Source of the DNA: Gemmatimonadales bacterium
GTDB lineage: Bacteria; Gemmatimonadota; Gemmatimonadetes; Gemmatimonadales; GWC2-71-9
NCBI GenBank assembly: GCA_013813875.1
Contig: JACCQZ010000251.1
Span: 1-40,070, forward strand
DNA: 40,070 nucleotides
Direction of reading: 5' to 3'
The notes under the pieces were generated by a model. That model had not been told where the DNA came from. It did not search any database and saw nothing but the letters and a program-made list of their open reading frames with translations. A program made the translations under genes and the position numbers. Shown one piece after another: positions 16,615 through 33,623 of this stretch; the stretch's first letter is position 1, and each line of letters starts with the position of its first letter.

Positions 16615-17979
16615 ATGCACGCCGTCGTCATCGGCGCGGGATTCGCCGGCCTCTCGGCGGCCTGGGAGCTGACCAGGCGCGGTGTCGGCGTGACTGTTCT
16701 CGAGGCCGATGGGGAGATCGGGGGTCTGGCCGGCAGCTTTCCAGTCGGCGGCACGCGGCTGGAGAAGTTCTATCATCACTGGTTCACCAGCGACGTTCAT
16801 GTCACCGAGCTGGTACGTGAGCTGGGCCGGGAAGATCAGGTGCTCTACCGGACGACCCGCACGGGCATGTACTTCGCCCACTCGCGCTTCCGGCTGAGCT
16901 CCCCCGCCGACGTCTTGCGCTTCACCCCGCTCCGCCCGCTCGACCGCATCCGCCTCGGGTGGCTCGCATTGCGGGCTCGCAGGGTGCAGGACTGGCGTGC
17001 ATTGGAAAGCATGACCGCGGAGGAGTGGTTGATCCGGCTGGGGGGACGTGAGGTGTTCCGGGTAGTCTGGCAGCCGCTGCTCGAGGGAAAGTTCGGCGAT
17101 TTCTCATCCGAGATCTCGGCGGTCTGGTTCTGGAACAAGCTCAAGCTGCGGGGAGGAAGCCGGGGAAAGGGCGGCGCCGAGGTGCTGGCGTATTACCGCG
17201 GCGGGTTTGCCGCGCTGGCCGAGGAGATGGCCGGCGCCATCCGCGCGTCGGGGAGCCGCATCCAGCTCGACTCCCCGGCCACGGGCCTGCGAGTGCACCA
17301 AGGGAAGGTGACGGGTGTGTGCACCGCGGCCGGCACCATCCCCGCCGATGCAGTGGTGGCCACCCCTGCATTGCCCATCGTGGCGGACATGATCGAGCCC
17401 CATGTGGCGACCGACTATGTGGCCGGGCTCAGGCGGGTGCAGTACCTGGCCAACCTTTGCGTGGTGCTCGAGCTGGACCGCAGCCTCTCCGATACCTATT
17501 GGCTCAACGTCAACGATCCCGGCTTTCCCTTCGTCGCCGTCATCGAGCATACCAACTTCGAGCCGCCGGAAACCTACGCCGGCCGGCACCTCGTCTATCT
17601 CTCCAAGTATCTGCCGGAGAGCGCCGAGCTCTACCGCATGGCGGACGCCGAGGCGGTCGCGTTTTGCGTCCACCACCTTCAGCGGATGTTTCCCCAGTTC
17701 TCCGGCGACTGGATCTTGGCCGCGCACGTCTGGCGGGCGCGCTACGCCCAGCCCGTCGTGGTGCGTCACTATGGGGCGCTGATTCCGCCGGTGCAGACGC
17801 CGATCGAAGGATTGTACCTCAGCACGATGGCGCAGGTGTACCCGGAGGATCGGGGAACCAATTACGCGATTCGGGAAGGGCGGAAGGTAGGACGGCAGGT
17901 GGCGGAGGCATTGACTGCCCTCACCCCACTGAAGCCTCCCGCTTTGCCTGCTGATACCCCATCCCCCGCAACCGGGTGA
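16615..17979 (+). CDS. FAD-dependent oxidoreductase (amine oxidase/protoporphyrinogen oxidase-like)
   Basis: A 454-residue flavoprotein. The N-terminus VVIGAGFAGLSAAWEL is the dinucleotide-binding GxGxxG motif, followed by LEADGEIGGLAGSF, the second FAD contact. HHWFTSDVHV and the C-terminal GLYLSTMAQVYPEDRGTNYA resemble oxidoreductases found in glycan and lipid operons, including UDP-galactopyranose mutase relatives. The true substrate is unknown. It is the third gene of the glycosylation operon and shares its direction and tight spacing. Its last 59 bp overlap the end of the converging M48 protease gene, an unusually long tail-to-tail overlap. Confidence 0.83.
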   Translation: MHAVVIGAGFAGLSAAWELTRRGVGVTVLEADGEIGGLAGSFPVGGTRLEKFYHHWFTSDVHVTELVRELGREDQVLYRTTRTGMYFAHSRFRLSSPADVLRFTPLRPLDRIRLGWLALRARRVQDWRALESMTAEEWLIRLGGREVFRVVWQPLLEGKFGDFSSEISAVWFWNKLKLRGGSRGKGGAEVLAYYRGGFAALAEEMAGAIRASGSRIQLDSPATGLRVHQGKVTGVCTAAGTIPADAVVATPALPIVADMIEPHVATDYVAGLRRVQYLANLCVVLELDRSLSDTYWLNVNDPGFPFVAVIEHTNFEPPETYAGRHLVYLSKYLPESAELYRMADAEAVAFCVHHLQRMFPQFSGDWILAAHVWRARYAQPVVVRHYGALIPPVQTPIEGLYLSTMAQVYPEDRGTNYAIREGRKVGRQVAEALTALTPLKPPALPADTPSPATG

Positions 17980-18943
17980 TGCGCTGCCGGATGGGTGGAT
18001 GTGAGGCGAGCACGTCGGCGAGCAATCCCTCGCGGGAAGACATCACGCCCGGGGCCGGGTCCACGATGCAGAGGTGCGCCGCGCCCTGGGTAATAGTCCG
18101 CGTGGGCGATGCCGCCGCCGCCAGCTTCTCCAGCGCCGACGCGAGCGCCATCGGGTTGCGGGTGAACTGAGCCGCGGTGGCATCGGCCAGATACTCCCGC
18201 TTCCGACTCACCGACATCGCCAGGAGCCGGGAGATGATCGGCGCCACGACCAGGGTGACCACCCAGAGCACCAGGATCACCAGCGCCAGCGGATTCCCAC
18301 CCTTCCCCCGACTTCGCCCGCCGACGGCGCCCCCTCCGCTCCGTCCGGTCCGCAGCATCCGACCCATCCCATCCGACATCAGCGCGATCGCCCCCACCAT
18401 CCCCGCGAGCAGCGTCATGAGCCGCACATCGAGGTTCCGCACGTGCGCCATCTCGTGGGCGACGACTCCCTGCAGCTCGTCGCGGGAGAGTGCGCGCAGC
18501 AAACCCTCGGTGACCGCGATGCTGGCCGATTCGGCATCGCGGCCGGTAGCGAAAGCATTGGGATCGTCGTCCGGGACGATCCAGACCTTCGGCCGGGGCT
18601 GGCCCGAGGCGATGGCCATCTCCTCCACCACGTTTACCAGTTGTTTCTGTTCCGGAGTGGCCGGCTCGATGATCTCCCAGGCACCGGTGGCCCACAGAAT
18701 CCGGGCCGGCCCGTAGCGCCAGGAAAACCAGCAGATGCCGCCGGCCACGAGGGTGGTGAAGATGCCGATGAGAGGGACGACGTGGCGGTAGGAACCCGGA
18801 GGATCGTCGGCGGTGAGCAGCCCGAAGGCGAGATCGCCGCCGAATCCCACCCAGGCGAAGAATACGATGAAGCCGATGACGAGCCAGGTCGAGCGGCGGC
18901 GGTTGGACTGCTGCTGAGCGAAGAGGTTGGCCTCCTCGGTCAT
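17921..18943 (-). CDS. M48-family membrane zinc protease (HtpX-like)
   Basis: A 340-residue integral membrane metalloprotease. Two hydrophobic segments at about 20-85 precede the soluble catalytic part. VVAHEMAHVRN is the HExxH zinc site, and the third ligand Glu lies in KREYLADATAAQFTRN. NAFATGRD is the conserved substrate-edge strand of HtpX proteins. Two further hydrophobic helices lie between (LMTLLAGMVGAIAL and ALVILVLWVVTLVVAPII). It likely degrades misfolded membrane proteins. The lemA-type gene ends just upstream on the same strand (6-bp gap), a pairing common in many bacteria. Confidence 0.9.
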   Translation of the reverse strand: MTEEANLFAQQQSNRRRSTWLVIGFIVFFAWVGFGGDLAFGLLTADDPPGSYRHVVPLIGIFTTLVAGGICWFSWRYGPARILWATGAWEIIEPATPEQKQLVNVVEEMAIASGQPRPKVWIVPDDDPNAFATGRDAESASIAVTEGLLRALSRDELQGVVAHEMAHVRNLDVRLMTLLAGMVGAIALMSDGMGRMLRTGRSGGGAVGGRSRGKGGNPLALVILVLWVVTLVVAPIISRLLAMSVSRKREYLADATAAQFTRNPMALASALEKLAAAASPTRTITQGAAHLCIVDPAPGVMSSREGLLADVLASHPPIRQRITRLRGMGYQQAKREASVG

Positions 18944-18949
18944 CTGGGC

Positions 18950-19516
18950 CTACGGCCGTTTCAGCGACAGGTCCACCGCCGGGACCCCGCGCTCCGCCGT
19001 ATCCTGGATCTCCCACAGCTCGGCCGGCGTCGCTTTGGCGAGTCCGGCCACCAGCATGGTGGGGAAGGTGGCCTGCCGGATGTTGTACTGGGTGGCCACG
19101 TCGTTGTAGAGCTGGCGCGCGAAGCCGATTTTGTTCTCCGTGCTGGTGAGCTCTTCCTGCAACTGCGCCACGTTCCCCGTGGCCTTGAGGTCGGGATAGG
19201 CCTCGGTGAGCGCAAAGAGCCGCCCCAGCGCTTGCGTCAGCTCTCCCTCCGCCTGCGCCGTCTGGTGAACTCCGGTGGCGGCTACCGCCTTGTTGCGGGC
19301 GCTGATCACCTCCTCCAGGGTGCCGCGCTCAAACTCCATCGCTCCCTTGACCGTGTTCACCAGGTTGGGGATCAGATCATGCCGGCGCTTCAACTGGACG
19401 TCTATCTGCTTCCAGGCGTTGGCCACCTGGTTCTTGAGGCCGATCAGTCCGTTGTACGCTCCGATGACCCACAGCACTATGGCGGCGATGACGACCAGAA
19501 GCACGATCGTAGCCAT
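18950..19516 (-). CDS. lemA: LemA family protein
   Basis: A 188-residue LemA protein: one N-terminal transmembrane helix (TIVLLVVIAAIVLWVIGAYNGL), then a long helical exported domain. YNGLIGLKNQVANAWKQIDVQLKRRHDLIPNLV is almost invariant in the family, and YNDVATQYNIRQATFP is the C-terminal hallmark. LemA is tied to membrane-protein quality control and often sits beside M48 proteases, as here. The track starts at 19531; ATG 19516 is preferred because GGAAGG lies at the right distance and it gives the usual family start. Confidence 0.93.
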   Translation of the reverse strand: MATIVLLVVIAAIVLWVIGAYNGLIGLKNQVANAWKQIDVQLKRRHDLIPNLVNTVKGAMEFERGTLEEVISARNKAVAATGVHQTAQAEGELTQALGRLFALTEAYPDLKATGNVAQLQEELTSTENKIGFARQLYNDVATQYNIRQATFPTMLVAGLAKATPAELWEIQDTAERGVPAVDLSLKRP

Positions 19517-19540
19517 GGACCGACCTTCCATCAGGAGGAG

Positions 19541-20179
19541 TTAAGGCGCCACCAGCGCGGCGAGCGCCTGCCGGAGCGCCTCCGCGATCGCGGCGGTGTC
19601 GCCGTTGAGACGGATGACGGGGTGCTGCTCGTCAATGAAGACGTCAATCCCGGGCGCCACCACGATCCGCCGGCACACCGAGCCGATCCCGGCGACCCCC
19701 TCCACCGGCGCCAACCACCCCAGCACCGCGCGGCCCACCCGGCCCCGTCCGGTCCCAGGCGACTGCAGAAGCGGGAGCCGGTCCGGCCGGGGCAGGGTGG
19801 GGCCGAGCGCGCTGGCCACCCGGCGCTCGATGACATCGCCGGTCAGGCCGGAAAACTCCCGCGTCATCGTCTCCAGCGTAGCCCCTTCCATCTGGCGAAG
19901 CTTAATGGCGAGCACCTGCAGCAGGTGGCGATAGGAGTAGACCGCGGCGGTACCGCGTCCGTCGGGCGGGCTCACCAGTCCTCGCGCGACGTAGAACCGG
20001 ATGGTGCGCTCGCTCGGCCGCGCGCGGGCGGCGGCGTTGATCGGCACCACCCCGGAAGCGTCCAGGATACCGGCCGACAACGCCGCCAGATCGCGCAGCC
20101 CCCAGGGCGCCAACCCACGGTACTCTCGCAGGGTGGTGAGCGGTTCGGGCGGGGCCGAAACGGTAAACCCGGCGGTCAT
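19541..20179 (-). CDS. MerR-like HTH transcriptional regulator
   Basis: A protein of 212 residues. About 50-110 is a MerR-type winged HTH: SERTIRFYVARGLVSPP, then YSYRHLLQVLAIKLRQMEG with the typical wing helix. The N-terminal extension of about 50 residues and the C-terminal beta-rich 100 residues (RRIVVAPGIDVFIDEQHPVI) match no ligand domain I know; no Cys cluster is present, so it is not a metal or redox MerR. The track ORF begins far upstream in a spurious frame; ATG 20179 overlaps the preceding receiver gene as ATGA. It is the last gene of a three-regulator operon. Confidence 0.75.
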   Translation of the reverse strand: MTAGFTVSAPPEPLTTLREYRGLAPWGLRDLAALSAGILDASGVVPINAAARARPSERTIRFYVARGLVSPPDGRGTAAVYSYRHLLQVLAIKLRQMEGATLETMTREFSGLTGDVIERRVASALGPTLPRPDRLPLLQSPGTGRGRVGRAVLGWLAPVEGVAGIGSVCRRIVVAPGIDVFIDEQHPVIRLNGDTAAIAEALRQALAALVAP

Positions 20180-20586
20180 CCGTGTCCGTTCCGCTTGCGC
20201 TGGCCATCGGGAGCCTCGGCGGCGGCGAGCGTGCTCAGCACGGTGCTGCCGAGCTGGTCGAGGGTGAAAGGCTTGGCGAGAACGGGACAGCGAAGCAGCT
20301 CGGGCGGCCAGTCGGAGCTGATGGCCCAGGGGTCGCCGGTCATCAGCACCACCCGGCCGAGCAGCCGGGGCCACCGCCGCACCAGGGCGATGAAGAGCGC
20401 ATCGCCCGACATTTGAGGGAGGTGGATATCGAGCAGTACCAGATCGTATTCCGCCGAGTCGAGCATCTCGTACGCCAGGTGGGGATCGCCGACCGACACG
20501 ACTTCGAGGCCCAGATTCCGCAGCGCGCGCTCCAGCGTCCGCCGCAGCGAGGCCTCGTCGTCCACCACCAGGACTCGAGCGCTCAT
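20176..20586 (-). CDS. Stand-alone response regulator receiver
   Basis: A 136-residue CheY-like protein with all phosphotransfer residues: VVDDEAS, the phosphoacceptor Asp in LVLLDIHLPQ, Thr in VLMTGD and Lys in LAKPFT. No output domain follows, only a short basic tail. It overlaps both neighbours by ATGA, so the stoichiometry of the three regulators is probably linked. It may relay phosphate from an unlinked kinase or modulate the AraC-type or MerR-like partner by contact; no kinase gene is nearby. Confidence 0.88.
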   Translation of the reverse strand: MSARVLVVDDEASLRRTLERALRNLGLEVVSVGDPHLAYEMLDSAEYDLVLLDIHLPQMSGDALFIALVRRWPRLLGRVVLMTGDPWAISSDWPPELLRCPVLAKPFTLDQLGSTVLSTLAAAEAPDGQRKRNGHG

Positions 20587-21374
20587 GACGCCACCTGACT
20601 CAACTGGGTGAAATAGCGTTGGGTGACGATGGCCATCGCCTCATCGGTAGAGAGGGAGACCCGCAGCTCCCCTGCAGTGAATCCAAAGACCGCACGCAGA
20701 TGCATCTGCAGAGTTTTCGTCTTGCTGTACCCCATCTTGAGCGCGACATCCTCCACCGTGTACCCCGGATCGAGCAAGAGCCGGTGGGCATAGAGCAGCC
20801 GCGTCAGCACCATCACCACGCGAGGTGAGGGCAATCCTACCTTGGTGAACCAACGCTCGCAGGTGCGCCGGGTCATCTGTGCCCGGTCGGCGAGCGCGGT
20901 GACGGTCGGGTTATCGCCCGGAGTCAGGAGCATGACCTCGAGCGCGGCTCGCAGCTCGGAAGGTAACTCCCGGAGGGTGTCATTGAGAGCCAGCATGACC
21001 TGCTGAGAGGCGCTCTGCTCCAGCTCAGCCAGGATGGCGTTCCGCAGCGGCCCTGGGGCGTCCTCGAATCGGTGGACTACCACCCGGCGGATGCCGAACT
21101 GGCCCAGCTTGAGGAGTACGCCGGCATTGGGCGGTGTCAGTTCGGTGTAGATCAGCAGAGGGAGGGAGGGAAAGAACTGGCGCAACCGCTCGATGCCGTG
21201 AGGCCGCGGACCGCCGCCTCCGAGGAGGGGATCGACGACCGCCATATCCACCGGCTTGATCCGGATCGCCTCCACCGCCTCCACCCAGTTTCCTACTGCC
21301 ACCCACTGGAATTGGTTGGGATCCAGGGTGCGGAGTCGGAAGAGGCGCTCGGCGGGGACGGCGGCAAGGAGCAA
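20583..21374 (-). CDS. AraC-type regulator with N-terminal pseudoreceiver
   Basis: About 263-273 residues depending on start. The N-terminal 125 residues alternate strands and helices like a receiver (MAVVDPLLGG, LPLLIYTEL, RRVVVHRFED) but lack the acidic pair and the conserved Lys, so normal phosphorylation is doubtful. About 160-260 holds two AraC-family HTHs: VTALADRAQMTRRTCERWF and VEDVALKMGYSKTKTLQMH, with FGFTAGELR near the end. The track start, TTG 21404, falls inside a direct-repeat operator; TTG 21374 places both repeats upstream and is preferred. First gene of the regulator operon, divergent from a small lipoprotein gene. Confidence 0.78.
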   Translation of the reverse strand: MLLAAVPAERLFRLRTLDPNQFQWVAVGNWVEAVEAIRIKPVDMAVVDPLLGGGGPRPHGIERLRQFFPSLPLLIYTELTPPNAGVLLKLGQFGIRRVVVHRFEDAPGPLRNAILAELEQSASQQVMLALNDTLRELPSELRAALEVMLLTPGDNPTVTALADRAQMTRRTCERWFTKVGLPSPRVVMVLTRLLYAHRLLLDPGYTVEDVALKMGYSKTKTLQMHLRAVFGFTAGELRVSLSTDEAMAIVTQRYFTQLSQVAS

Positions 21375-21375
21375 A

Positions 21376-21417
21376 TGTCGCAAATCGGCCCCTATTTGTC
21401 GCAAAAAGGCCCTAAAA
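21376..21417. promoter_or_regulatory. Direct-repeat operator between regulator operon and lipopeptide gene
   Basis: TGTCGCAAA occurs at 21376 and again at 21397, exactly 21 bp apart, each followed by a GGCCC block at the same offset. Over the 21-bp unit 15 positions match. Two-turn phasing is the usual layout for AraC-family proteins, so autoregulation and control of the divergent peptide gene is the likely role. Confidence 0.6.
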
Positions 21418-21487
21418 AGGCCAGATCCCGATCCTCAGATTGGGCGGTACCCAAGTACAACATCGTCAATCCGAAAGGGTCCCGCCC

Positions 21488-21625
21488 ATGCGCCGCACGT
21501 ATCAGTGGCTCGCCATCGCCAGCTTCAGCCTGGCTGTCCTCACCTCCGCCTGCACTCGTACCGATGCGACTGGACCTTCGGAACAGCCGACGCCGTCGTT
21601 CGAAACCCAGGGCGGCAATAACTGA
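21488..21625 (+). CDS. Small lipoprotein-like exported peptide (45 aa)
   Basis: ATG 21488 follows GAAAGGG at a proper distance; the longer track start (21440) adds residues that do not fit a signal peptide. The product has a basic start, a hydrophobic core (WLAIASFSLAVLTSAC) and a lipobox-like LTSAC, although Thr at -3 is unusual. The mature part would be only 24 residues, hydrophilic and ending in FETQGGNN. It is divergent from the AraC/REC/MerR operon and shares its repeat-bearing promoter region; 3 bp after its stop the TPR gene ends on the other strand. It could be a signalling peptide, a small lipoprotein or a target of the regulators; no family is recognised. Confidence 0.6.
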   Translation: MRRTYQWLAIASFSLAVLTSACTRTDATGPSEQPTPSFETQGGNN

Positions 21626-21628
21626 GGC

Positions 21629-22930
21629 CTAGACACCCGCCAGGACGGCATATTCCTGTAGGCCGCTCTCGACCTCCTGCACGGCCGGCGCTTGACTGAA
21701 GCTCAAGCCGTCGGCCGGCTCGGGGTGATGGTCGGGGCATTCGGATAGGTTTTCCAACACCCGCTCGATCTGGAAGTACCAAGTATTGAGCCGGTTTGCC
21801 TCCGCCACCTCCATCGCTGCGCGTAGCGCCTGCCGAGCCCGCCCGAGCTGGCCGAACCGGGCAAATCCAACAGCCGTCTTGTAGTAATAGTCGGCCGTCA
21901 TACTCGGTGGCATCCGGCCTCGAAGGGGTTCCGCTTCCGCACGCCGGCGCTCGAACGCGACTCGATTGCGGGCGACAGACTCGAGGTTCATCAATTCGAT
22001 GAGCGCATTGATTCGGAGCAGAACGCTCGTGTCCGAGCCGACCAGAATCTCGAAGCCCACCCGAGCCCCATCGAGACAGCCGATCTCGGCGAGTCCGATG
22101 GCTACATCGCCCAGCGCCCGCATCCGCTGGAGGGGATCGGGCGCGAGCTTGAACGCGCGGTAGTTCGCGTGCAGCGCTTCAACCCGCATGCCCTGCAGGG
22201 TGTACACCGAGCCAAGGTCTCCGTAGGCAATAGTCTGCACGTCATCGAGGTGCAGCTCGGTAGCCGCCGCAAGCGCGGCCTCTGCGGCCGCCCGGGCCGC
22301 CGGGAGATTGCCCTGCCCTCGCAGGACTGCCCCGCAGCCGAGCTGCCCCCTCAGCGCTACAACGTGATCGCCCAGTAAACGGCCGGCTTGTTCCGCACCC
22401 CGGTAGCAGGAAGTGGCAACTTCCCAGCGCGCAAGCAGCCGGTTCAGCCTCCCAGCGAAAAGCGCGATGCTCGCAAACTCCGACGCCGGCAGCGCCGGCC
22501 CGTGAGTCCGCGCCGCAAGGGCTAGGACCTCCAGCGCCTCCTCCAACCTCCCCTCGTGCTCCAGGAAATAGGCGTATGCGGTTAGGCTGAGCCGGAGAGC
22601 GGAAGGCGGGGGCCCGGTGCCTGGCACCGATTCGGTTATCCCGGAAAGATGGGCTGCTTCGGGAGAGTCGTCCGGCAGATCCTGCAAGTGCCGCCGAACC
22701 GCGTCGAGCTGCCAGATGAACCCTTCCTCCGCCTCCGGCGTGTCGGGCTTTACCAGCAGCCGATTGACCAGGCGCGCCACCACGTAGGCGGCAAGGGCCA
22801 GCCGGGCGGAGCCGTCCTGCTCGCGCTCGCGCTCCAGCCGGGCGCGCTCGAGAAATGAGGCGTGCGCCAAGACATCCGCTGACGACCCGAACTCACCAAA
22901 GAGCTGCTGGGGCGTTAACAGTGATAGCAT
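21629..22930 (-). CDS. TPR-rich helical protein
   Basis: A 433-residue, almost wholly helical protein. From about residue 130 onward repeated pairs fit TPR units: AYAYFLEHEGRLEEALEVLA, AGRLNRLLARWEVATSCYRG, YGDLGSVYTLQGMRVEALHA and YYKTAVGFARFGQLGRARQA. No HTH, catalytic motif or signal peptide is visible. It may act as a cytoplasmic protein- or peptide-binding module. ATG 22930 has GGCGGA just upstream. It converges on the small lipoprotein gene with 3 bp between stops. TPR proteins beside small exported peptides recall peptide-sensing systems, but there is no DNA-binding domain here, so that reading is only a hypothesis. Confidence 0.7.
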   Translation of the reverse strand: MLSLLTPQQLFGEFGSSADVLAHASFLERARLEREREQDGSARLALAAYVVARLVNRLLVKPDTPEAEEGFIWQLDAVRRHLQDLPDDSPEAAHLSGITESVPGTGPPPSALRLSLTAYAYFLEHEGRLEEALEVLALAARTHGPALPASEFASIALFAGRLNRLLARWEVATSCYRGAEQAGRLLGDHVVALRGQLGCGAVLRGQGNLPAARAAAEAALAAATELHLDDVQTIAYGDLGSVYTLQGMRVEALHANYRAFKLAPDPLQRMRALGDVAIGLAEIGCLDGARVGFEILVGSDTSVLLRINALIELMNLESVARNRVAFERRRAEAEPLRGRMPPSMTADYYYKTAVGFARFGQLGRARQALRAAMEVAEANRLNTWYFQIERVLENLSECPDHHPEPADGLSFSQAPAVQEVESGLQEYAVLAGV

Positions 22931-23507: not shown

Positions 23508-24089
23508 TCATTGGCTCGGCCCGAACTTCAGGTCCACCCGGACCTCGATGTCCTCGTACATCTTGAGCATCCCCAGCATCTTGCTGAGTCCGCCGATCTC
23601 ATAGTCCTTGAGGTTGAGCGGAAACTCGCTCGTCACCTGCACCGCGTCGCCGCTGCGGCGAACCGAGCCCGGCAGCGTAACCTCACGGCTGATGCCATGA
23701 ATGGTCAGCCTGCCCAGCAAGTTCACGGCCATGCTATCGCCGCTGCCACCCACGGAGCTCACGCCCGAGAGGTCGAAACGGATCGTGGGAAAACGGTCGG
23801 ATTCCAGCGACTTGTTGAGGTCGCGGTCCCTCCTGCCGTTCCCGGTAACCAGGGTGCGCACCGGCGCCTCGACCCAGCCACGCACCGCGGAAAGGTCGTC
23901 TCCGCCGGCCATCGCTCCCGAGATCTCCGTGGTAGTTCCCCCAAAGTCGCCCGCGGTGGCGTGGCCCTGAAAGCTGAGGGTGCCTTCCCGCACACTACCG
24001 GCGGGAATCGGCGCATCCAGTTGTGCTTCCAGGTCGGCCGCGCCGCCCAACACGCCCGCAACCACCAGCGCAGCCAACGCCACCCGCAT
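23508..24089 (-). CDS. YceI-like periplasmic protein
   Basis: A 193-residue secreted protein of the YceI lipocalin-like family, which binds polyprenoid or amphipathic ligands in the periplasm. A signal peptide covers about 1-23 (VALAALVVAGVLGGAADLEAQ). The mature part carries SFQGHATAGDFGGTT, RDRDLNKSLESDRFPTIRFD, LTIHGISREVTLPG and the closing MYEDIEVRVDLKF, all family marks. The upstream gene on the same strand, a receiver-HTH protein, ends 1 bp before its start, so the two are co-transcribed. Confidence 0.88.
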   Translation of the reverse strand: MRVALAALVVAGVLGGAADLEAQLDAPIPAGSVREGTLSFQGHATAGDFGGTTTEISGAMAGGDDLSAVRGWVEAPVRTLVTGNGRRDRDLNKSLESDRFPTIRFDLSGVSSVGGSGDSMAVNLLGRLTIHGISREVTLPGSVRRSGDAVQVTSEFPLNLKDYEIGGLSKMLGMLKMYEDIEVRVDLKFGPSQ

Positions 24090-24090
24090 A

Positions 24091-24468
24091 TCAGTCGCCT
24101 TCCAGTCTGTACTTTCGTACCTTGTGCAGCAGCGTCGAGCGGGAAATACCCAAGAGCTGGGCAGCCCGACGCCGGTTCCCTCCGGTATGGCGCAGCATCA
24201 GCGCAATGTGCCGGCGTTCGGCTGCCTCCATGGATTCCGGCTCGGCCGGCCGGCTCGGGGCGAGCGCCTCGCGGAGCAGGCGCAAATCGATGTCGGGAAT
24301 GCCGAGGTCGAGCAGGAGTTGGTCGAAACCGGCGGTGGCTACAGCGGCCGCGGCGGCCGCGCCATCGGGAGCCGCGACGGCATGGTGGCCGGTGCCGCGC
24401 AGCAGGTCCAGCATGGCCTCGCGGCGCTCCGGGTCCCGCTCGAGGATCAGCACATGGAGCGGCGGCAT
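24091..24468 (-). CDS. Truncated receiver fused to Fis-type HTH
   Basis: About 125 residues. The first 65 begin as a receiver (VLILERDPERREAML, then LLLDLGIPD with the phosphoacceptor Asp) but the acidic pocket is altered and the final strands and helices with the Thr and Lys are absent. About 80-125 is a Fis/NtrC-type HTH (EAAERRHIALMLRHTGGNRRRAAQLLGISRSTLLHKV). No AAA+ domain lies between, so it cannot drive sigma-54 open-complex formation; it should act as a simple DNA-binding protein. ATG 24468 is chosen; the track start at 24528 would overlap the divergent exoribonuclease gene. It is likely co-transcribed with the YceI gene. Confidence 0.7.
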   Translation of the reverse strand: MPPLHVLILERDPERREAMLDLLRGTGHHAVAAPDGAAAAAAVATAGFDQLLLDLGIPDIDLRLLREALAPSRPAEPESMEAAERRHIALMLRHTGGNRRRAAQLLGISRSTLLHKVRKYRLEGD

Positions 24469-24505
24469 GGCTTTGAAGGTAACCGACTCCTGATCCGTGA
24501 GCTCT

Positions 24506-25501
24506 ATGCCACCAGGTACCGATCTCAAGCGTCTTCTTCCCGGCGAGCGGCTTCAGGATTCGCTGCTGGTGCTCGACCTCGAGCAGCGCACCTACGGAGA
24601 CGGCAAAGATTGCGTAGTCCTGGTGCTCAGCAACTCGAGCGGCAGTATCGTGTCGGCCCCCTTCTGGAGCGAAAAGCAGTCGGCCCTGGCCGGCATCGGA
24701 AAAGGCACCGTGGTCCAGGTCGGAGGAGAGGTCCGGCTTTTCCGCGGCAGGCGCCAGCTCGACATCTCTTCCATCAGCATACTGCCGGGCGTCGCAATTG
24801 ATTGGCGCCGGCTCCTCCCTTCAATCGCCGACGTCGTCCCCATCTGGGAAAGGCTCGACCGCTGGCGCGCCGGCATGCGCGGGTCGAGACTGGGGGACGT
24901 CGTTGCGCTCTTCTACGACGACGCAGACTTTCGCCGGCACTTCCAGGAGTGCCCTGCGAGCACGTCGGGCCACCACGCCGAGCTCGGCGGGCTGCTGCGG
25001 CACACCTGCGAGGTAGCGGCCATCGGCCGGGCCATCGCCAAAACCTCCCGCGCCGATCCCGACCTCGTGCTCGCCGGGGCGCTGCTGCATGACATCGGCA
25101 AGCTCGAAGCCTACTCCTGGAAGGTCGGCTTCGGGACAACCGAGTCCGGCAGCCTGCTCGGCCACGTCGCGCTGGGGATGCTGATGCTGAGCCGGCGCGT
25201 CGCGGACCAGGCAACGCCGCCGTGCACCGAGCGGGAGCTCCTCCTGCTCCAGCATCTGATCGCCTCTCATCACGGGAGGCTCGAGTTCGGCGCGGCGGTT
25301 CTGCCCATGACGCTGGAAGCCGAAATCCTGCACCATGCCGACAACGCGAGCGCAAAGACCGCCAGCATGGCCGACGCCCTCGCCGACCCGGACAATTTCG
25401 CTGGAGACGATCTGATAAGCGCCAAGTCCATCTGGCAACTCGATCGGCGCCGCGCCTATCGGGGCAGCAGTGACTGGGGGTACCGGGAGGTACCTTCATA
25501 A
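24506..25501 (+). CDS. OB-fold/HD-domain 3'-5' exoribonuclease (YhaM-like)
   Basis: About 331 residues. Residues of about 8-95 form an OB-fold nucleic-acid-binding domain (FWSEKQSALAGIGKGTVVQVGGEVRLFRG). About 145-300 is an HD domain with HHAELGGLLRHTCEV, LLHDIGK, LIASHHGRLEFG and ILHHADNASAK, the order seen in YhaM/CbfI enzymes. These degrade single-stranded RNA from the 3' end. ATG 24506 is taken in place of GTG 24497; neither has a strong Shine-Dalgarno. The gene is divergent from the receiver-HTH gene with only a few dozen bases between starts. Confidence 0.88.
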   Translation: MPPGTDLKRLLPGERLQDSLLVLDLEQRTYGDGKDCVVLVLSNSSGSIVSAPFWSEKQSALAGIGKGTVVQVGGEVRLFRGRRQLDISSISILPGVAIDWRRLLPSIADVVPIWERLDRWRAGMRGSRLGDVVALFYDDADFRRHFQECPASTSGHHAELGGLLRHTCEVAAIGRAIAKTSRADPDLVLAGALLHDIGKLEAYSWKVGFGTTESGSLLGHVALGMLMLSRRVADQATPPCTERELLLLQHLIASHHGRLEFGAAVLPMTLEAEILHHADNASAKTASMADALADPDNFAGDDLISAKSIWQLDRRRAYRGSSDWGYREVPS

Positions 25502-30729: not shown

Positions 30730-31929
30730 ATGCACTACCTCACGATTTCGCTCGACCCGGAGCGCGCCTTGGCATTGTTCGATCATTTCAGGCTTATTGC
30801 CCCCCGAGTGGCGGCCCTCGCCCTGGGCTCGTTCGTCGTCTCCTGCGGTGGGACCACTCCGATTCGAATCGGTGTCGCGGGATCTTTCAGCGATCCCATC
30901 GGCCTCCCCATGAAGCTCGCCGCGGAGTTGGCGGCGGACGAGATCAACGCAGCCGGAGGGATCAACGGCCGGCGGCTGGAGCTGGTGCCGCGCGACGACT
31001 ACGCCGACCCCGACTCCGCCGTGTTCATCGCGACGGATCTCTACGAATCGGGAGTCTCGGCAGTCGTCGGACACCTCTTCTCGGGAATGACGTTGGCCGC
31101 GTCACCGGTCTACAATGGCGGCGACGATCCCGTCGTGGCCATCTCGCCTTCCTCCTCCTCGCCCGAAGTTACCAGCGCCGGCGACTACACCTTCCGGATC
31201 TGTCCCAGCGATCTGGCCCACGGCGCCGTGCTGGCTCACTGGGTCCGGGATCAGCTCAAACTTCAGCGCGGCGCGGTCCTTTATCTCAACGACCAGTACG
31301 GCCGTGGCATCCGTCAGACCTTCGTTCGCGAGCTTTTCCGCCTGGGAGGTCAGCTGGAGTCCATTGACCCGTACCTGGGCGACAAGCCCGACGTGGCGGC
31401 CTATCTCGACCGTCTCGTGCGGACCAAGGGCATCGAGTTCCTCGTGGTGGCCGGCAACCGGGGCGAGGCCGAGGAGATCATTCGTCAGGCACGGCGGCGC
31501 GGCCTCACCATTCCCGTCCTGGGCGGCGACGGTCTCGAGGGGATCCACGAAGCAGGAGAGCTGGCGGAAGGAGTCTATCTCTCCTCCGCCTATTTCCCGA
31601 CCATCCCCACCGAGTCGAATCGCCGGTTCGTCCAGGCGTTCCAGCGAAAATATCCCACAGCCGGACTGCCTAACCAGCCGGCGGCGGCTACCTATGATGC
31701 GGTTTATCTGCTTCGCGACGTGATCGCCAGCGTCGGTCCGGAACGGCAGGAGGTTCGCCGGGCACTGGCCGGCGTCGGATCGGAGACACCGCCCCACGAG
31801 GGCGTCACCGGCACCGTCGCGTTCGATGCCGCAGGAGACGTCCCCGACCAGAACGTGTACATCGGTCTGGTGCGGCAAGGCGAAGTGGATGTCGCCGAGA
31901 AGGCGACGGAAGTCGCGCGCGGCCAGTGA
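30730..31929 (+). CDS. Periplasmic-binding lipoprotein (branched-chain amino acid type)
   Basis: A type I periplasmic binding protein of about 399 residues, Peripla_BP_6/LivJ-like: [54 protein letters not shown] and the hinge region [11 protein letters not shown]. The N-terminal hydrophobic core ends VVSCGG, a lipobox, so it is probably anchored in the membrane. No permease or ATPase gene follows; instead its stop overlaps the chemoreceptor start as GTGA. It is therefore likely a ligand sensor for that receptor rather than part of a transporter. The start is uncertain: ATG 30730 is used, while the signal peptide may begin at a later TTG or GTG. Confidence 0.83.
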
Positions 31930-33623
31930 CCATCATGCGAAGTCTGCGGAGCCGGGTGATCGCCGGTATGGTGCTGCTGATCGGCCTGGTGTTCGTCATC
32001 GCCCTGCTGGCGGTCAACTCGATCCGTTCTCTCGACCGCTCGGTGGAGCAGGAGCTCTCGCTGCTGCTGGAGAGCACCGACCTCGGCAACGGTCTGGTGA
32101 CGTCGGTGGCCGCGGAGATCCGCTCGGCCGAGCAGTACCTGGTTCGGCCAACCGACCGGCTCCGTCTGCAGATGCTGGAGGAGGGCGATTCCGCGTACGC
32201 CGTCCAGCGGCGCTATCGCGGTCTGGGCGCCCTGACTACCGCCGACCGGTACATCGTGAACAAGATCGCCTCCAATCAGGCCGAGATCGAAGTGGCCTAT
32301 GCCATGAGCCATGCCCTGACCGACCTCGGCCGCACCGACGACGCCAGACGGCAGGCGGATCTTGCCCGATCGCCATCCGACACCCTGCTGAGCGACGTCA
32401 GGGCTCTCTCCCTGGCGCAGACCAACCGGTCGGTTGCCCGGGCCGAAGATCTTCACCGTGAAGCCGAAGAGCGGCGGCGAACCCTCTGGGGTCTCTTTCT
32501 CGCCTCCCTGCTCCTCGGCGTCTATACCTCGGTGCGCACGGTGCGCTCGGTGGACCGCCCGCTCACCTTGCTGGTCCGTGCCGCCGAGCGCTTCGGCGAA
32601 GGCGATCTCCGGCCGGTTCGGCTGGGTGCCATGCCGAGCGAGCTCGAGCGCCTGGCCCGTGCCATGGACGACATGGGCTCCCGGCTCCGCAACGTAGTCA
32701 CCGCCGTCGTCGGCGAGGCCAGCCAGATCGGGAGCAGCGCGAGTGATTTCTCCGCCATGAGCGAGGAGTTGGCGGCGAGCAGCGGGGAGATCTCTACCGC
32801 GATGGTGAAGATCGCCTCCAGCGCCGAGCAGCAGGTAAAAGGTATGGAGAGAGCCGATGCTCTTCTTCTGAGCCTCCGCCAGATCGCCGAAGCCAATGCG
32901 AGCGCCTCGTCCCGGGTGGTGGAACTGGGCGATCGAATCCAGACCCTCGCCGCGCATCACCGCGCCGACGTGGCATCCGCAGCCCAGACCCTGCTGGATG
33001 TGCGCGAAGTGGTCGGCACTTCCGCGCGGCAGGTTCAGGAGCTTGCCCGGCTGTCGGAGCCCATCACCGCGTTCATTGATCTCATCAAGCAGATCTCGTC
33101 GCAGACCAACCTGCTCGCGCTCAACGCCGCCATCGAAGCGGCCCGCGCCGGCGAGCACGGCCGCGGCTTCGCGGTGGTGGCCGAGGAGGTGCGGCGGCTG
33201 GCCGATTCCAGCGCCGCCGCGGCCGAAGACGTGGCCAAGACGGTGCAGCACATCCGCAGCCAGGTACGGGACGTGACCCAGACGATGCAGCTGGGCTCGT
33301 CCAAGGTTCAGGGTATCGAGTCGGTCGCCGAGGCGGCGGCCCGGGCGTTGGAGGAGATTTCAATGGCGGTGGAGGAGGTCCACAACGCCGCTGAGGAGGT
33401 GGCGAGGCAGGCTCTGGGCAACCGACAGATCGTCGAGCAGCTGGGGGAGCGGACTCAGGAGGTAAGTCGGGCCGCCGCCGAGCACGCCTCTGCCAGCGAG
33501 GAGGTCACGGCGGCGGCGGAGGAACAGAGCGCCAGCACCGAAGAGATGGCTGCCGCGGCCAGCGATCTACTTCAAGGGGCCACCCGGCTGACGGCGGTGA
33601 TGCAGGAGTTCAAAACCACGTAA
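31926..33623 (+). CDS. Methyl-accepting chemotaxis protein
   Basis: A 565-residue chemoreceptor. TM1 is at about 12-32 ([20 protein letters not shown]), with a helical periplasmic domain at about 33-175 and TM2 at about 180-198. A HAMP domain follows ([19 protein letters not shown]) and then the long cytoplasmic hairpin. The tip [18 protein letters not shown] is the invariant CheA/CheW contact region. Glu/Gln-rich heptads give several possible methylation sites. No CheR-binding NWETF tail is present. The GTG start overlaps the stop of the binding-lipoprotein gene; ATG 31935 is an alternative. The all-helical sensor fits indirect sensing through a bound periplasmic protein. Confidence 0.93.

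Follow-up and report, generated by a model that had tools for sequence, protein, structure and literature searches.

We analyzed a locus at positions 19541 to 22930 of a 40,070-nt stretch of contig JACCQZ010000251.1 (positions 1 to 40,070, forward strand) from assembly GCA_013813875.1 of a Gemmatimonadales bacterium. This whole stretch is called the window. The locus encodes a tetratricopeptide-repeat (TPR) protein, a small exported peptide precursor, an AraC-type regulator with a pseudo-receiver domain (AraC-pseudoREC), a stand-alone receiver protein (REC) and a MerR-family regulator. We consider the chances about even that these genes form a peptide autoinducer circuit. The features below are given with their coordinates, their strand and the basis of each assignment.

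Features of the locus

17921..18943, minus strand: M48 membrane metallopeptidase, conserved downstream neighbour in family f1 (Pfam and gene order)
18950..19531, minus strand: LemA family protein, also kept downstream in f1 (Pfam and gene-order comparison)
19541..20179, minus strand: MerR-family regulator (Pfam MerR_1), kept in f1 loci
20176..20586, minus strand: stand-alone REC with a complete phosphorylation site (Pfam Response_reg; D53 and K105 in 33/33)
20583..21374, minus strand: AraC-type regulator with an N-terminal pseudo-receiver domain (Pfam HTH_18; TTG start at 21374 inferred)
21376..21416, plus strand: operator, two 21-bp direct repeats, TGTCGCAAATCGGCCCCTATT and TGTCGCAAAAAGGCCCTAAA (genome and family-wide scans)
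21436..21442, plus strand: CAGATTG, a conserved promoter-like box that probably serves the peptide gene (alignment of ∼65 promoters)
21473..21479, plus strand: ribosome-binding-site-like GAAAGGG, which is GGAGG in most relatives (promoter alignment)
21488..21625 (ATG to TGA), plus strand: 45-aa exported peptide precursor, MRRTYQWLAIASFSLAVLTSA followed by CTRTDATGPSEQPTPSFETQGGNN (homologues, substitution rates)
21599..21622, plus strand: C-terminal octapeptide FETQGGNN, candidate mature signal with putative boundaries (tandem copies in relatives)
21629..22930, minus strand: 433-aa TPR superhelix protein, candidate peptide receptor (family match, predicted structure)

A first-pass annotation of the window had described three regulator classes joined by two ATGA overlaps, and the araC/REC and REC/merR overlaps are both present. 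It had also placed the end of the TPR gene 3 bp from the peptide stop, which is where its stop codon (21629) lies; this gene is convergent to the peptide gene and on the same strand as araC. In line with its statement that no histidine kinase is nearby, none was found among the Pfam-scanned open reading frames of the window, a subset of all such frames. The locus is neither ordinary nor an artefact, and the original observation is real and beyond chance.

Conservation across relatives

AraC homologues were taken from nine congeners and ∼26 further genera of the family. The comparison also covered larger stretches and 66 named loci, almost all of which carry the label of Gemmatimonadota or of one of its members. 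With duplicates removed, 65 loci had both the TPR and araC ends on the contig. The family-wide gene order, conserved in ∼35 genera, is gspH, TPR, peptide (opposite strand), araC, REC, merR, lemA and M48. Among Gemmatimonadaceae, the core of TPR, peptide, araC and REC is retained in most loci examined. An intact peptide is present in 62/65 loci (61 by automatic scoring plus L158 by eye). At another (L118), the peptide is stopped directly after the lipobox, and in the remaining two (L048 and L050) peptide and repeats are both missing. Because the TPR gene runs straight into araC at these two peptide-less loci, we counted it in the regulator operon. These comparisons strongly support TPR, peptide, AraC-pseudoREC and REC as a conserved module, which is found again, with the paired repeat and in most cases with REC, across Gemmatimonadales. 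MerR, LemA and M48 appear to be accessory, since none of the three turned up at the f2 loci that were compared, a weak negative due to the use of window proteins as the only queries. The first-pass annotation had staked its proposal on peptide frame and repeats being conserved beside homologous regulators, and across relatives this expectation survived strongly.

Several individual loci merit description. L048 (genome G046) branches early in the AraC tree, close to the genus of the window, and its lack of peptide and operator may be ancestral or a loss. In genome G056 the main locus, L050 (G056:C110), has lost peptide and operator, and a second, L068 (G056:C43), has both. L118 and L199 are from metagenome-assembled genome AG45, probably G115, whose araC-less second locus L169 has an intact peptide. 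L115 (QHSL01000142.1), labelled Candidatus Rokuibacteriota, is nearly identical to the locus of Gemmatimonadota genome G039, and its contig looks mis-binned.

Exported peptide

All homologues are built alike. A basic start leads into a hydrophobic stretch; then come an invariant Cys preceded by a small residue, a short linker containing Pro and a variable C-terminus. Counted from the predicted Cys+1, the peptide of the window has 24 residues and ends in FETQGGNN, as had been described. The ratio of nonsynonymous to synonymous substitution rates is 0.12–0.35 in five groups, for signal and mature parts, and a GGAGG-like sequence lies 5′ of most start codons in the promoter alignment. Because of these low ratios and ribosome sites, the peptide gene is very probably real, translated and selected as a protein. 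The precursor appears to be exported and is probably lipidated. Note that although the lipobox Cys is always present, position −3 in f1 is often Ala or Thr rather than Leu; the lipobox is canonical in several f2 members.

The C-terminal motif differs between species (CDVQNPNVCH among relatives, for example) and is duplicated in eight listed loci. SVQNSGA, SIQGSGT, NWQGSGT, SGHQGSGT and SGTQGSGT each occur twice, and LETQGSNN has two copies, or three of which one is shortened. Tandem copies within one precursor have the same amino acids despite 26 differing codons, all synonymous; copy boundaries were chosen by amino-acid identity, making the chance figure optimistic, and some loci are close kin. 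At least two origins of the duplication are required on the AraC tree. Agreement in protein combined with different synonymous codons suggests a multi-copy pheromone precursor. No further peptide paralogues were found at the protein level in the bacterium's own genome.

Operator, promoter and target genes

Repeats exactly 21 bp apart had been reported in the promoter region, and TGTCGCAAA indeed occurs at 21376 and 21397. The complete repeat unit is 21 bp, TGYCGCAAAANCGCCCTANN, and is present twice at the locus. A genome-wide motif search, proposed at the outset as a check, showed that the 3.3 Mb genome has only four copies of the 9-mer TTTGCGACA, arranged in two pairs with the same 21-bp period (chance of two such pairs ∼3e-12 given four sites). 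The second pair, at G000:C359:1938-1967 of another contig (L002, L072), lies ∼190 bp upstream of a gene for a BTAD-AAA regulator that is truncated by the contig end. When ten congeners were scanned with two mismatches allowed, all had the pair at araC, 0–3 pairs elsewhere and 0 control matches. The family-wide scan found sites in 32/81 genomes, and a reversed control pattern gave 0 matches.

On the peptide strand, the ∼65 aligned promoters have two TGYCGCAAAANCGCCCTANN units 21 bp apart, then a CA(A/G)nnTTG-like box at a constant distance of ∼30 bp downstream of the operator, then the ribosome site and the peptide ATG. Gemmatimonadaceae loci have different paired sequences, TGGCACAAA, TGACACAAA and TGTCATAAA, at 20–22 bp, mostly 21; paired repeats of other sequence at 20–22 bp occur in f2 and f9. 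Divergent repeat pairs were recognized by inspection at L245 (a relative of L074), L242 (= L157) and L158. In genus g15, a second locus comprises TPR, peptide, REC, merR, lemA and M48 without araC, and the operator still stands before the peptide. It is kept at the araC-less TPR–peptide–REC–merR second loci L166, L168–L170 and L230; L219, also araC-less, has the operator and no intact peptide. Because it lies near the promoter-like box and is kept at loci without araC, the operator is assigned to the peptide promoter, and we regard this DNA part of the model as well supported. The inferred araC start codon (TTG, 21374) abuts the repeat. A leaderless araC transcript was considered and rejected as a general explanation: the repeats abut the start codon at many loci but lie 25–36 bp off at others.

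The operator also precedes genes for PAS/REC kinases, receivers, TonB-type receptors, the BTAD regulator, a subtilisin-like protease and lipoproteins; these assignments come from the sequences, most of them made without a family search. The scans strongly support the operator as heading a small, species-variable set of genes besides the peptide gene. At L211, L217, L220, L226, L227 and L228, from several genera, the operator stands before receiver and PAS-type signalling genes, so kinases of the regulon may act back on the circuit.

AraC-pseudoREC, REC and operator recognition

The AraC protein matched Pfam HTH_18 with E 5.4e-13. Its AlphaFold2 model (predicted local distance difference test score, pLDDT, 90.9) matched the response regulators FixJ, PorX and RcsB and receiver domains in Foldseek. 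The first-pass annotation had proposed that the pseudo-receiver cannot be phosphorylated in the usual way and that the stand-alone REC can, and the residues support both predictions. In the AraC N-domain the acidic pair is replaced by Ala (37/40 and 35/40), Asp48 is present in 40/40 and there is no conserved Lys. REC has D9/D10, D53 and K105, the last two in 33/33 aligned sequences.

The operator consists of tandem direct repeats about two helical turns apart, as expected of AraC family sites. We infer that the AraC protein binds the repeats. In support are this geometry, the place of the site in the promoter, and the fact that operator core and recognition helices change together. Within f1, a recognition helix with E or KT.. 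pairs with a CGC core, and L/V/A/T and R(S/T) pair with a CCC core. Covariation was rejected as independent proof: the f1 split is clean, but it is a single change on the tree.

TPR protein

The TPR model is helical throughout (pLDDT 92.4). In a Foldseek search LGN and OGT ranked highest, followed by peptide receptors of bacteria: Rap, NprR, RapI and RapH–Spo0F. Matches of the Rap/NprR type had E 2e-5 to 2e-4 and template modelling (TM) scores (target) of 0.5–0.67, with generic TPR proteins ranking higher. No signal peptide was seen at the N-terminus by inspection. Pfam detected no helix-turn-helix (HTH) domain, and N-terminal helices are present in the model. As in RRNPP systems, a cytoplasmic-type TPR gene is adjacent to a gene for a small exported propeptide. 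A phage origin of the TPR protein was considered and rejected, there being no match.

Proposed circuit

In the circuit that we propose, AraC-pseudoREC would bind the operator and activate the peptide promoter and other target promoters. The exported precursor would be cut to free its variable C-terminal 7–10 residues, which would return to the cytoplasm and be bound by the TPR superhelix. Much as Rap does with Spo0F, the TPR protein could then change how far the stand-alone REC is phosphorylated or available. REC in turn would act on the pseudo-receiver of AraC, so that the peptide gene comes under feedback. The genome encodes two oligopeptide-binding SBP_bac_5 proteins, which were counted in favor of this circuit. 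That the M48 metallopeptidase processes the peptide is possible, if speculative.

In the Rap precedent, a TPR protein has the stand-alone receiver Spo0F as its target, and a C-terminal Phr peptide turns this TPR protein off (PMC3601965). The locus is like RRNPP/RRNPPA systems, especially Rap–Phr with Spo0F, in having a TPR gene beside a gene for a short exported propeptide whose C-terminus is the candidate signal, in its multi-copy propeptides and in a stand-alone receiver as possible target; the TPR model also has Foldseek matches to Rap, NprR and RapH–Spo0F, below those to generic TPR proteins. Multi-copy propeptides are common among Rap, NprR, PlcR and AimR systems (PMC9765709). Unlike those systems, it lies in a Gram-negative phylum, its TPR protein has no RRNPP-model sequence match and no HTH was found on it, the precursor has a lipobox-like site and, in most species, a Cys-flanked C-terminus, and output would fall to a distinct AraC-pseudoREC regulator that has a paired 21-bp operator of its own. 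On the best reading, the locus resembles RRNPP signalling in its working, but it has no RRNPP sequence match and sits in another phylum. Enterococcal sex pheromones are lipoprotein-derived and are cut from the signal peptide; here too the candidate signal would come from a lipoprotein precursor, but the varied and duplicated part is the C-terminal end. AraC-family response regulators likewise combine a receiver-like domain with HTH_18 and a direct-repeat operator, but here the acidic pair is missing from the receiver, which stands alongside a separate, intact REC.

Several points weigh against the peptide circuit. TPR superhelices resemble many proteins, and the best structural matches are the eukaryotic LGN and OGT. 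Pfam, NCBIfam and PDB sequence searches gave no RRNPP-family match for the TPR protein. If lipidated, the Cys would anchor the precursor in a membrane, and its release would require a protease. Placing copy boundaries where amino acids match biases the tandem-copy test towards identity, and the AraC–operator covariation amounts to one evolutionary event. The receptor role, import, protease and REC–AraC contact are all putative.

Three other explanations were weighed. The peptide could be a small surface lipoprotein, an envelope sentinel or component, with the locus acting as an envelope-stress response together with LemA and the M48 protease. The invariant Cys at a lipobox-like site, LemA–M48 following merR in f1, and the lipoproteins and secreted proteins also found downstream of the operator would all fit. 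However, LemA–M48 pairs are frequent housekeeping neighbours, the peptide is kept at f2 loci where LemA and M48 were not seen adjacent, and the variable part is the C-terminus, whose tandem copies change together; we consider this explanation unlikely. Slightly less likely still is a reading that treats the peptide as nothing more than output from the AraC regulon, such as a secreted lipopeptide acting on other cells, and the TPR protein as a scaffold of the regulator operon. L048 and L050 do keep TPR and araC together where the peptide is absent, and other exported proteins have the operator too. Against this, the peptide stands beside TPR in the great majority of loci and at araC-less second loci, which points to a TPR–peptide pair, and no immunity or modification gene was seen.

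Finally, the repeats could be bound by a factor other than AraC, such as the MerR protein, which is encoded in the same operon and retained with REC at second loci that lack araC. Checked genomes with an araC-less locus carry araC elsewhere, however, and f2 loci have AraC and paired repeats where MerR was not found. Direct repeats two helical turns apart also fit AraC monomers, which have two HTH motifs, and MerR sites are usually inverted repeats. We regard this explanation as improbable.

Signalling remains the best explanation of the peptide's role, though unproven. The fuller proposal is a peptide quorum sensing native to Gemmatimonadota without RRNPP sequence homology, in which C-terminal peptides of lipoprotein precursors would act through TPR and REC on an AraC-pseudoREC activator, the peptides being specific to each species and the regulon variable; we hold it tentatively, at a little under even chances.

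Published accounts of RRNPP-type peptide signalling concern Firmicutes and their mobile elements (PMC10075063, PMC9765709); in the open-licence literature searched, no paper linking it to Gemmatimonadota was found. If the proposal is true, an abundant, poorly studied soil phylum has its own language, with predicted peptides, receptor, operator and targets that are directly testable. The locus would also provide an independent case for the evolution of peptide-receptor specificity and a case for how signal peptides traverse a double membrane.

Other genes of the window

Three neighbours of the locus are conserved in the genus: a 193-aa frame at 23508–24089 (YceI-like by inspection), a Fis-type response regulator at 24091–24528 and an HD-domain protein at 24497–25501. 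Farther away, positions 31926–33623 encode a methyl-accepting chemotaxis protein with a HAMP domain.

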